Part shown: positions 26,731-29,067 of the stretch, piece by piece
Layout: every line of letters begins with the position of its first letter
Numbering within the stretch: position 1 is the first letter of the stretch
Virus record (IMG/VR): IMGVR_UViG_3300026519_000052
Location: 1-30,035 of that record
Reading direction: 5' to 3' (one strand)
Length of the DNA: 30,035 nucleotides
Source: a virus
Made by a program: the position numbers and the translations under genes
The notes under the pieces: generated by a model
Database searches by the model: none
What the model was told of the DNA's origin: nothing
The model's input: only the letters and a program-made list of their open reading frames with translations

Positions 26731-27279
26731 TCAAGCGGATGATTTTTCAGAGAATTTTAATATTCTGCTTTTTACGGATTTATAATAACTTGTTTTTTGT
26801 AAAATCCTTGATAGGATTTCACCAGATGGCGGCAGAAATGGATCTTCTTTGGTCGCCCCACGCCAGAGGTCATCGCAGGTATGGGCAATCGCAATTAGGC
26901 TAGATTTATCGCCAACAGCTGCGCTGGCTATATCCGAAATAATTACGCCATCCTTTCCGACTTCGCGCGCTGGGAAGTGCGCTAGCAGCCTAGTTAGCCA
27001 GTAAACAGCATTTTCGTAATCGGCTTTAATTTCAGTAAATTCCAAGATTTTTAAGGCGGTCTTCGCGTCCCGCTGGTTGTCTGGTTTTATCATCCATAGC
27101 TTGATTGTGCGCATTTTCGAGAGAATATCCGAGACCTCTTCCGCTTTTAGGTTTCTCTGGTAGTCTATAATCGTTTTCCCAGCTTTTATCTCTAATCCAT
27201 CGGAACATATCGGCGTTTTTTTGTCCTTCATTTTCACAATATCTGCGGTATTTGGCAATACCTTTTCCAATTCGCTCAT
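26731..27279 (-). CDS. protein of unknown function, overlapping the replication gene
   Basis: Up to 182 aa. The ATG at 27279 has a near-perfect ribosome-binding site (aaaaaaaggag, 6-7 nt away) yet lies 248 nt inside the DUF1376 gene in a different frame. The best-looking protein-like stretch is after residue 78 (YENAVYWLTRLLAHFPARE, then LIAIAHTCDDLWR and FLPPSGEILSRIL). The pattern W-x-x-R-L with a C-terminal P-S-G-E resembles parts of small phage replication accessory proteins, but I cannot place it. Non-ATG starts near 27045 would remove most of the overlap. Confidence 0.5.
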   Translation of the reverse strand: MSELEKVLPNTADIVKMKDKKTPICSDGLEIKAGKTIIDYQRNLKAEEVSDILSKMRTIKLWMIKPDNQRDAKTALKILEFTEIKADYENAVYWLTRLLAHFPAREVGKDGVIISDIASAAVGDKSSLIAIAHTCDDLWRGATKEDPFLPPSGEILSRILQKTSYYKSVKSRILKFSEKSSA

Positions 27280-27898
27280 AGCTTTCTCCTTTTTTTAACA
27301 TATTTTTAAATTGTTCTTTTGCTTTAGATTTATGCCCTTTGTTTCGGATATTTGGATAGGCTTTCCAAAATCGCTCAAACAGCCCATCAAACGTTTCTGT
27401 TGCCCCTTCGGGCATAAGAAAAGATGTTTTTATTACCGTCCCCCCTTTGGGGGTTAGGGGGGTAGATACGTTAGTATCTACTGTCTCTGTCTCTGTCTCT
27501 GTAGCATCGGCACGCATACCATCCGCATGCGAGACGCATTTAACTGTTTGATTTTCTTTGGTTTTACCCCAACGCTTGTTTGCTGCTTTTTCTGCTGATG
27601 CTGACCGTCTTTTCGTTTTTTTGTCTTGAATGTCCAATTGTTTGTCGCAAAAAGCATGGTGAAACATGCCGTTTTTATGCGTAAAGAATGCGGTTACTAT
27701 GCCCTTCGCATCTAACCACTTGTTTTCATTGACACCTGCTATCCGAGCAAGAGCTAGATCGTTGTCTGGTAAAGGTTCTCTTGTCTCCATATAATGATCA
27801 ACTAGGCGGCGATATATTCCGTCCTGCTCCGCACTTAAATGTAGTGTGCTTTTCTTGAATATTGCCGGATACCAAGGAAACCAAAAGTCGTTGCTCAT
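27032..27898 (-). CDS. DUF1376 (YdaU-type) replication protein
   Basis: 288 aa. The N-terminal 100 residues are a clear DUF1376 domain: FWFPWYPAIFKKSTLHLSAE, DGIYRRLVDHYMETREPLPD, then KWLDAKGIVTAFF and CDKQLDIQDKKTKRRSASAE. These winged-helix domains are found in phage initiators or helicase loaders. Residues about 165-245 have FWKAYPNIRNKGHKSKAKEQ and FRWIRDKSWENDYR, the other conserved block of these proteins. The linker has a GA-rich repeat giving ETETETV (gtctct repeats at about 27482-27502 on plus). The ribosome-binding site aggagg is strong. A role in origin recognition or helicase loading is inferred. Confidence 0.75.
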   Translation of the reverse strand: MSNDFWFPWYPAIFKKSTLHLSAEQDGIYRRLVDHYMETREPLPDNDLALARIAGVNENKWLDAKGIVTAFFTHKNGMFHHAFCDKQLDIQDKKTKRRSASAEKAANKRWGKTKENQTVKCVSHADGMRADATETETETVDTNVSTPLTPKGGTVIKTSFLMPEGATETFDGLFERFWKAYPNIRNKGHKSKAKEQFKNMLKKGESYERIGKGIAKYRRYCENEGQKNADMFRWIRDKSWENDYRLPEKPKSGRGLGYSLENAHNQAMDDKTRQPAGREDRLKNLGIY

Positions 27899-27907
27899 AG
27901 TTTCCTC

Positions 27908-28075
27908 CTATTTATTAACTTCTTGTTTTTTTAATTTTTCAGAGATCATTATATTTAATTCTGCACTGATTGACCGTCTGTTTTCTTTTGAAATTTTGTC
28001 TAGGAAAGCCCTGTTTTCAACGTCTATCGCAAAAGTGAATTGCTTTGAACCGTTCTTTTTAATATATTGCGCCAT
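27908..28075 (-). CDS. Arc-like ribbon-helix-helix repressor
   Basis: 55 aa from ATG at 28075, chosen because aaggag lies 7 nt before it; the longer form from 28105 has no such site. The layout is that of Arc/Mnt: strand KQFTFAID, helix ENRAFLDKISKENRRS, helix ISAELNIMISEKLKKQ. These proteins bind operators as dimers of dimers through the strand. Its own promoter region contains an imperfect inverted repeat and an 11-nt motif that also occurs in the divergent control region at 28.6 kb. It is therefore likely to control itself and perhaps the early promoter, as Arc does in P22. Confidence 0.8.
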   Translation of the reverse strand: MAQYIKKNGSKQFTFAIDVENRAFLDKISKENRRSISAELNIMISEKLKKQEVNK

Positions 28076-28103
28076 ATTTATTCTCCTTTGTTTATACATA
28101 CAC

Positions 28104-28143
28104 ACAACCTATATAGACTTAATGTAAATGTATATCAAGTTGT
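28104..28143 (-). promoter_or_regulatory. promoter and candidate operator of the Arc-like gene
   Basis: Minus strand: TTGATA (28133-28138), 17-nt spacer, TATATA (28110-28115). An imperfect inverted repeat, ACAACTTGATATA versus TATATAGGTTGT, brackets the promoter. The spacer contains ATATACATTTA (28125-28135), also found at 28615-28625 on the plus strand. All point to repressor binding at this promoter. Confidence 0.5.
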
Positions 28144-28178
28144 GCTGACACCTAAATTATTAGATAGATGCCAGCACA
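28141..28178. repeat. inverted repeat near the Arc-like promoter
   Basis: TGTGCTG (28141-28147) and CAGCACA (28172-28178) can pair, with two further pairs (CA/TG) after one mismatch; loop about 18 nt. A short T run follows on the plus strand, but no plus-strand gene ends here. It may be an operator-type dyad next to the -35 box or a weak terminator. Confidence 0.35.
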
Positions 28179-28232
28179 TGTTTTTAGTCTTTATTGTGAT
28201 CGAACAGATCGTCTTGTTTCTCCGCAAGAGCT

Positions 28233-28542
28233 TCATAAACCATCTGGCGAGAGGTTTCGTACCCATCCCGCGCCGATAGGTTTGCTTCGAAAAAAGCGCA
28301 TAACATCGTCAAACGCCCTTTTGTCAATGCCCTTTACTGCGAGATCGTATCTTGGTTGAAACTTTAATTTTGTAATATCGCCACCAGCGTCTCGGAGAAG
28401 AAGGAGCGTTGCTCCACTTGGGGCATTCTTTATAATTCTCTTTTTGGTGATGTCTGCAATCTAAACACATATGATTACGCTTAGAACGGTTGAAGGCGTC
28501 ATTTTTGCTCTTGAAATGGTACTTTTTAAGATGATTGCTCAA
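28233..28542 (-). pseudogene. broken DUF1064-like gene (frameshift)
   Basis: First part: a frame with TTG start at 28542, preceded by aggag at 7 nt, giving SNHLKKYHFKSKNDAFNR and a zinc-ribbon-like CLDCRHHQKENYKECPKW; it runs on to a stop at 28324-28326. Second part: the frame shifted by +1 near 28420 encodes SGATLLLLRDAGGDITKLKF followed by QPRYDLAVKG, down to a TGA at 28233; that frame has no start codon. The second part resembles the LLLLxxAGxIxxLxxQPxFxL core of DUF1064 proteins, nuclease-like phage proteins. One intact gene may have been split by a single-base change. A longer GTG start at 28584 is unlikely because a promoter overlaps it. Confidence 0.4.
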
Positions 28543-28570
28543 GTGGTCTCTCCTGTGGTTCTTGTTTCGG

Positions 28571-28598
28571 ATTATAAACGACACCTCTTAGCAGTCAA
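28571..28598 (-). promoter_or_regulatory. strong leftward sigma70-like promoter
   Basis: Minus strand: TTGACT (28593-28598), 16-nt spacer and a perfect TATAAT (28571-28576). Transcription would start near 28563, just before the aggag and TTG of the first leftward gene. This marks the likely origin of the leftward block. Confidence 0.6.
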
Positions 28599-28614
28599 TA
28601 AAAAGATGCATTTA

Positions 28615-28625
28615 ATATACATTTA
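28615..28625 (+). promoter_or_regulatory. candidate operator motif between the divergent promoters
   Basis: ATATACATTTA, identical to the motif in the Arc-like gene promoter (28125-28135 on the opposite strand). The match extends to 14 of 16 bases (ttaATATACATTTAaa versus ttgATATACATTTAca). It lies between the two divergent -35 boxes, where a bound repressor could act on both. Confidence 0.4.
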
Positions 28626-28642
28626 AAAGTGCGCTTATTGTG

Positions 28643-28671
28643 TTTACAATGCTTTTAAAACGATCTATAAC
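28643..28671 (+). promoter_or_regulatory. strong rightward sigma70-like promoter
   Basis: TTTACA (28643-28648), 17-nt spacer and TATAAC (28666-28671), each 5 of 6 to consensus. It would start transcripts near 28678, giving a leader of about 110 nt before the first rightward gene at 28789. Confidence 0.6.
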
Positions 28672-28713
28672 ATAACACATAAGCTTTGTACTTGGAGAGC
28701 AGTTATAACCTTA

Positions 28714-28749
28714 TGACCGCGCCCCTCCCCCACACGCTGGGCGCGGTCA
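28714..28749 (+). promoter_or_regulatory. GC-rich hairpin in the leader of the rightward operon
   Basis: TGACCGCGCCC (28714-28724) and GGGCGCGGTCA (28739-28749) form a perfect 11-bp stem with a 14-nt pyrimidine-rich loop. No T run follows, so it is not a simple terminator. In the leader RNA it might protect the 5' end or bind an antitermination factor. Confidence 0.5.
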
Positions 28750-28788
28750 CCTAAATAATAAATAGAAAAATATCAAAAGGAACAGAAA

Positions 28789-29067
28789 ATGAAAAATGAA
28801 ACAACTGAACTTATGCTTCAAAACCACGGATTAGCAGTTATAGCGGGATATAAGCGTCCCAGAAACGATAATATAAAGAGAATGCGCCTTGAAGACATAG
28901 ACGCTCGGATAATCTTCCATGAAAATAATATAAGCAATATGGTTGGTCTTGCCTCGATATGTAGGGACAGTAGGGAACGTAGAAAGATAGCCCTTGAGAT
29001 TGGGTATAGCCGAATTGAACTTGATTGTATTTTAAAACCTTTAAAAGAAAGATTAGAAGAATGTTAG
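28789..29067 (+). CDS. early protein of unknown function
   Basis: 92 aa, first gene after the rightward promoter, with a good site (aaaaggaac). Charged and helical: NDNIKRMRLEDIDARIIFHE, then CRDSRERRKIALEIGYSRIE. No recognised fold, membrane segment or signal. Being first in the early operon, it might regulate or take over host functions; this is inferred from position only. It overlaps the next gene by 7 nt. Confidence 0.6.
   Translation: MKNETTELMLQNHGLAVIAGYKRPRNDNIKRMRLEDIDARIIFHENNISNMVGLASICRDSRERRKIALEIGYSRIELDCILKPLKERLEEC

Follow-up and report, generated by a model that had tools for sequence, protein, structure and literature searches.

In the Arc/Mnt system of phage P22, the Arc operator sits between the -35 and -10 elements. 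In alphaproteobacterial phages, boxes for the host cell-cycle regulator CtrA are found in promoters and in the gaps between divergent gene blocks, and such boxes have been tested, according to a report on CtrA-controlled phages and 'lytic deferment' (PMC9437464). A site of the form TTAA-N7-CTAA is bound by CtrA at hemE, as described in PMC11264516. Divergence of operators and immunity between related phages is reported for Cluster A mycobacteriophages (PMC6550527), whose control regions can be near-identical except at a putative regulator site.

The stretch of DNA analysed here, referred to as the window, is 30,035 bp long and makes up the whole of contig C6 in an assembly totalling 1.74 Mb. 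A leftward run of terminase, head, connector, DNA-ejection, tail and endolysin genes identifies it as phage, and a second, smaller block of genes is transcribed rightward. The right end of the window shares an exact 127-bp overlap with contig C9, which continues for about 1.2 kb and then reaches sequence 98% identical to the left end of the window; the map is therefore circular and about 31 kb long. Approximately 1.2 kb of the map is known through C9 alone, and the two proteins read on that contig match PAPS reductase and ERF. The best match to a fragment of the host RpoC among the 80 loci kept came from a Micavibrio sp. MAG, at 85% identity; this is a set from which records very close to the window's own genome were possibly excluded, and the phage is associated with a Micavibrio-type alphaproteobacterium. 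Micavibrio is predatory, so the host is possibly predatory as well. The regulation of Micavibrio phages looks little studied in the literature searched (no titles naming Micavibrio or prophage were found among the matches listed), and no literature was found that deals with CtrA in predatory bacteria and Micavibrio. The same assembly also contains a relative, phage B, which consists of contig C21 (15,415 bp, agreeing in length and match coordinates with IMGVR_UViG_3300026519_000107) and, by our assignment, C9. About 19.8 kb of this phage is assembled, and it is thus incomplete; over the longest aligned stretch it is 84% identical to the window.

The segment separating the two gene blocks would serve as the bidirectional control region of the phage, with one promoter reading into the leftward block and the other into the rightward block. 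The features of this segment and of the Arc-like gene are as follows, the sequences and positions being direct observations:

27908-28075, minus strand: gene for a 55-aa Arc-like ribbon-helix-helix protein, start ATG at 28075-28073, AGGAG upstream
28110-28138, minus strand: promoter-like site of the Arc-like gene, TTGATA (28138-28133), 17 nt, TATATA (28115-28110), 9/12
28117-28140, no strand: imperfect 24-bp palindrome, candidate operator, 18/24, containing the motif at 28125-28135
28141-28178, minus strand: strong hairpin without a T run, directly upstream of the -35 of the Arc-like gene, z -4.60 for 28100-28200
28324-28544, minus strand: remnant of a DUF1064/Holliday-junction-resolvase-like gene, frame broken and shortened; open and 147 aa long in phage B
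28571-28598, minus strand: leftward promoter-like site, TTGACT (28598-28593), 16 nt, TATAAT (28576-28571), 11/12
28612-28626, no strand: exact CtrA-type box, TTAA-N7-TTAA, sharing its bases with the divergent motif
28615-28625, plus strand: ATATACATTTA, the divergent copy of the motif, centred midway between the two -35s and within the half-operator-like ATTTAATATACATTTA (28610-28625)
28622-28650, plus strand: alternative rightward site TTTAAA-17-TACAAT, 9/12, its -35 overlapping the motif
28643-28671, plus strand: rightward promoter-like site, TTTACA (28643-28648), 17 nt, TATAAC (28666-28671), 10/12
28644-28658, no strand: second CtrA-type box TTAC-N7-TTAA, 7/8, spaced 32 bp from the first box and sharing bases with the rightward -35
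28714-28749, plus strand: G+C-rich 11-bp hairpin in the rightward leader, z -2.97 for 28678-28792, identical in phage B

Like the P22 Arc/Mnt system, this phage has a small Arc-like protein and a candidate pseudo-palindromic operator between a -35 and a -10. In contrast to that system, the promoter marked in this way is the gene's own, and the second site, which matches half a palindrome only, overlaps neither of the divergent core promoters. An antirepressor region was not noticed in the phage, nor was an integrase found among the 29 window proteins scanned out of the 46 reading frames listed; the name 'central switch', which the first-pass annotation had given to the region, is therefore unsupported in its lysogenic sense. 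The arrangement resembles that of the CtrA-controlled phages of PMC9437464 in that the host has CtrA and an exact TTAA-N7-TTAA box lies between divergent blocks. It differs from what is described there in having one exact and one 7/8 box instead of a dense cluster, and in that the box coincides with a candidate site for a phage repressor. The situation in the Cluster A mycobacteriophages is mirrored by the window and phage B, but on the scale of two phages and one site, and with repressor and lysogeny putative at most (compared with PMC6550527).

Two strong promoters facing away from each other had been proposed for the region, and this description held in part. Both sites are at the places given, and the predicted leftward promoter (11/12) is better than chance, since only 4 of 300 shuffles of the divergent region contained a promoter scoring 11 or more. 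The rightward site (10/12), on the other hand, does not end its -10 in the usual T and was therefore missed by the promoter scanner, and scores of at least 10 were seen in 57 of 300 shuffles. Promoter-like sites as such were not in excess in the surrounding 3 kb, where 6 were found against 7.5 expected. In phage B the leftward site reads TTGACT-16-CATAAT, and the rightward site TTTACA-17-TATAAC is unchanged. It is mainly this identity that argues for the putative rightward promoter; the -35 of the alternative rightward site, TTTAAA, becomes GCTAAA in phage B and is not kept. The block headed by the leftward site comprises the nuclease remnant and the Arc-like gene as well as replication, packaging, head, tail and lysis genes. 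The hairpin in the rightward leader (28678-28792) is present nowhere else in the assembly and has no T run, and it was included in a comparison of window positions 27900-28900 with Rfam, which gave no match.

The 55-aa protein appears to resemble Arc-like ribbon-helix-helix repressors, as judged by matches that are weak but concordant: PHROG phrog_3180 'Arc-like repressor' (E 5.9e-4) and the Arc construct PDB 1u9p (E 0.0018). The fold typical of such proteins is a beta strand followed by two helices in an intertwined dimer; an AlphaFold2 monomer model made from the single sequence shows one long helix besides two strands (pLDDT 75, pTM 0.32). Pfam and NCBIfam gave no match to the protein. No relatives were found among 20 candidate stretches in IMG/VR or in 50,697 phage records, and 142 genomes of the host's order yielded only weak matches in 2 other genomes (E about 0.006). 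Since these protein searches did not yield a set of relatives, the conservation of the motif is judged on one relative, phage B.

At the promoter of the Arc-like gene, read leftward (28140-28117), the palindrome runs from 2 bases upstream of the -35 to 1 base short of the -10, and thus covers the -35 together with 16 bases of the 17-nt spacer. The motif within it had been assigned to the promoter spacer; 8 of its bases do lie there, whereas the other 3 are the last bases of the -35. A palindrome score of 18 was equalled in 164 of 2000 local shuffles and at 13 of 30,012 window positions, so that taken alone the palindrome is a weak and not significant operator signal. We infer that the Arc-like protein would most likely bind this palindrome and, by covering the promoter at its -35 and spacer, would repress its own gene. 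Autorepression of this kind is plausible.

The 11-mer ATATACATTTA was found exactly at 28615-28625 (+) and 28125-28135 (-), with no other copy in the window, in agreement with the earlier claim that the divergent region and the Arc-like gene promoter share it; upon extension, 14 of 16 bases agree between the two sites, as had also been stated. The motif is not frequent elsewhere in the genome either, as the whole 1.74-Mb assembly contains 4 copies, the remaining two lying between genes that we take, from their translations, to be sucC/sucD and rpoC/rpsL. Of the inner 7-mer TATACAT, the window has 5 copies against 2.83 expected, and 3 of these copies are in the two promoter regions, the third of them at 28093-28099; it was absent from C21 (15,000 bases) and present once in C9. 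CATTWA words occur four times, as tandem pairs in the two regions, an arrangement seen in 34 of 2000 shuffles in what was a post hoc comparison.

For comparison of the divergent site with the palindrome, a 16-nt half-site consensus was built from the two palindrome halves of the Arc-like gene promoter. Across both strands of the 30-kb window the divergent site was the best match besides the source halves (26/28, the next being 21), and shuffled versions of the divergent region reached 26 in 2 of 1000 cases. In the phage B contigs (15,000 bases of C21, and C9) the best score was 21. The match is not independent of the shared word, because one palindrome half contains that word, and the divergent copy matches one half only. 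The opposite arm of the palindrome, which had played no part in finding the motif, scored 9/12 against the divergent region (506/1000 shuffles, not significant), or 12/16 (56/1000 shuffles) at 16 nt, where the centre is included again. A consensus widened to fit all three sites, AYTTRATRTAMATKTA, had 8 matches in the 1.74-Mb assembly when up to one mismatch was allowed, the reversed control having 4; only 3 of the matches were exact, and by construction these are the three source sites.

The divergent motif is centred on 28620, the midpoint between the two -35s being 28620.5, and is separated from the -35 hexamers by 16 and 17 bp, so that neither core promoter is occluded. Each predicted start site (as derived from the -10s) is roughly 50-65 bp downstream of it in its own direction of transcription, and blocking of a core promoter would for this reason not be expected from this position. 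The single most likely reading, to which we give a probability of about 0.4, is that the divergent 11-mer is a second, half-palindrome site for the Arc-like protein. Bound there, the protein might occupy an A+T-rich upstream element shared by both promoters, or it might displace an activator, for which CtrA would be the obvious candidate since a CtrA box sits on the same bases.

Comparison with phage B bears on this reading. The divergent regions of the two phages align over 171 columns with 6 substitutions, 4 of which are consecutive and fall within the 11-mer, which reads ATATATTGCTA in phage B; these changes are directly observed. Such clustering would have a hypergeometric probability of 1.3e-4 if substitutions were independent, but independence does not hold, and runs of at least 4 substitutions are not rare between the two phages (20 in 12,320 aligned columns). 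The phage B half-site matches either palindrome arm at 8 of 12 positions, compared with 10 and 9 in the window, indicating that the putative repressor half-site is weakened and not erased. Two other genes occupy the place of the Arc-like gene in phage B; a search of 15,000 bases of C21 gave no copy of that gene, and neither did one of the rest of the assembly. This pattern fits the loss or change of an operator together with its repressor, in a single case and with an incomplete phage. Among 104 genomes of the host family, DNA of the divergent region was found only in the window's own assembly (C6 and C21), and an exact 29-nt conserved piece was found in IMG/VR in the C21 record alone. As to conservation of the motif, then, the one relative compared has nearly identical divergent promoters but four changes inside the motif itself.

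The suggestion in the first-pass annotation that the Arc-like protein represses both itself and the central switch is partly supported. Arc similarity, the palindrome at the gene's own promoter and the altered motif in phage B, where the gene was not found, speak for it; the divergent site, however, is outside the core promoters, matches half a palindrome only, and is also a CtrA box. Control of both divergent promoters by the Arc-like protein is supported in part only.

The shared 11-mer could instead be a chance match of two A+T-rich promoter regions with no common regulator, an explanation that we consider possible, if somewhat doubtful. When the two upstream regions were shuffled with dinucleotides preserved, 29 of 2000 shuffles shared an 11-mer and 4 of 200 reached 14/16, which puts the significance of the shared motif at about 1-2%, uncorrected for looking elsewhere. 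The picture changes when the search is widened to every intergenic stretch of 40 bp or more, of which the gene list of this analysis gives 13: 161 of 400 shuffled sets held at least one pair of stretches with a common 11-mer, and the 2 pairs observed were reached in 23 of 400 sets. The window overall contains 790 direct and 183 inverted 11-mer pairs. The shared word is therefore notable for the named pair of regions, but not across the window, and the opposite palindrome arm lends it no independent support. Coincidence agrees less well with the location of one copy in a palindrome with Arc-style placement and of the other midway between two -35s, and with the alteration of the motif in the one relative where the Arc-like gene was not found.

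According to another explanation, which we regard as unlikely, the divergent site belongs to the CtrA of the host and not to the Arc-like protein, the shared word being coincidental; the two boxes would then tie the rightward block, and perhaps also the leftward one, to the state of the host cell. The host does encode CtrA (NF045991, 407 bits against a cut-off of 350), and two one-mismatch boxes lie just upstream of its gene. Shuffling of 28599-28671 gave an exact box in 216 of 5000 cases and an exact box plus a second in 94 of 5000, whereas the 44-bp gap between the -35s, shuffled by itself, gave an exact box in 128 of 5000. In phage B both boxes are found at 7/8, the first as TTAA-N7-CTAA, with 3 of the 4 changes located in the N7 spacer, and published precedents exist in PMC9437464 and, for the hemE-type TTAA-N7-CTAA, PMC11264516. 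However, CtrA boxes are not in excess around host ctrA, in the genome or in the window: 3 one-mismatch boxes were counted in the 3.2-kb locus around host ctrA against 4.92 expected, and 79 boxes genome-wide against 99 in the reversed control. The window has 2 exact boxes, one of them in a coding region, against 1.05 expected (33 of 100 shuffles equal this), and thus no concentrated excess. Nor is there a dense cluster like the 12 boxes reported for vB_BsubS-Delta. Moreover, no box of at least 7/8 was found in the intergenic stretch preceding the Arc-like gene. The 11-mer that this stretch shares with the divergent region would be left unexplained.

The CtrA and Arc-like protein readings are compatible and not mutually exclusive. 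They would be united if the repressor site of the phage coincided exactly with a box for the host CtrA, such that both proteins compete for the same DNA. We consider this combination quite improbable; under it, phage B, with its weakened half-site and the hemE-type CtrA box kept, would separate the two functions naturally. If the overlap is true, one operator would be shared by a repressor of the phage and a cell-cycle regulator of its host, a small case open to testing, for which the two co-assembled phages offer a ready-made four-base difference. If the ordinary reading, with the Arc-like protein acting through its palindrome, holds alone, the locus adds another phage repressor that regulates itself. 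With just 2 copies in the host, the 11-mer is rejected as a motif of general use there.

Further relatives were compared with the window. A third relative, in genome G058, has a TerL 64% identical to that of the window, and searches of its contig C19 with the replication and Arc-like proteins found nothing. The G058 TerL (L039, 7420-9957) matches the window TerL in two pieces with about 300 residues between them, an insert that we presume to be an intein. A homologue of the second rightward protein is encoded in two loci, L207 and L208, whose control regions, compared by eye and unaligned, show no apparent relation to that of the window. In L207, from a more distant phage contig, the palindrome CGTAA-N2..4-TTACG occurs three times (859, 2023 and 3706), at least twice between main genes, which is the kind of repeated operator that would be wanted in the window. 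In phage B (L001, 3061-4020), two successive rightward genes have similar leaders and the same first codons (MKNETT); the first of them encodes a repeat protein that is absent at that position of the window.

Within the window itself, a short rightward frame at 3046-3297 matches a model for cytosine-5 DNA methyltransferases solely in its C-terminal part. In addition, the DUF1376 replication gene (27032-27898) overlaps by its 3' end, over 248 bp (27032-27279) and in a different frame, with the 5' end of a gene for a 182-aa protein (26731-27279), and both frames are open in phage B too. The 32 substitutions counted in this overlap are distributed over codon positions 1, 2 and 3 as 18, 3 and 11 in the replication gene, and as 3, 11 and 18 in the 182-aa gene.
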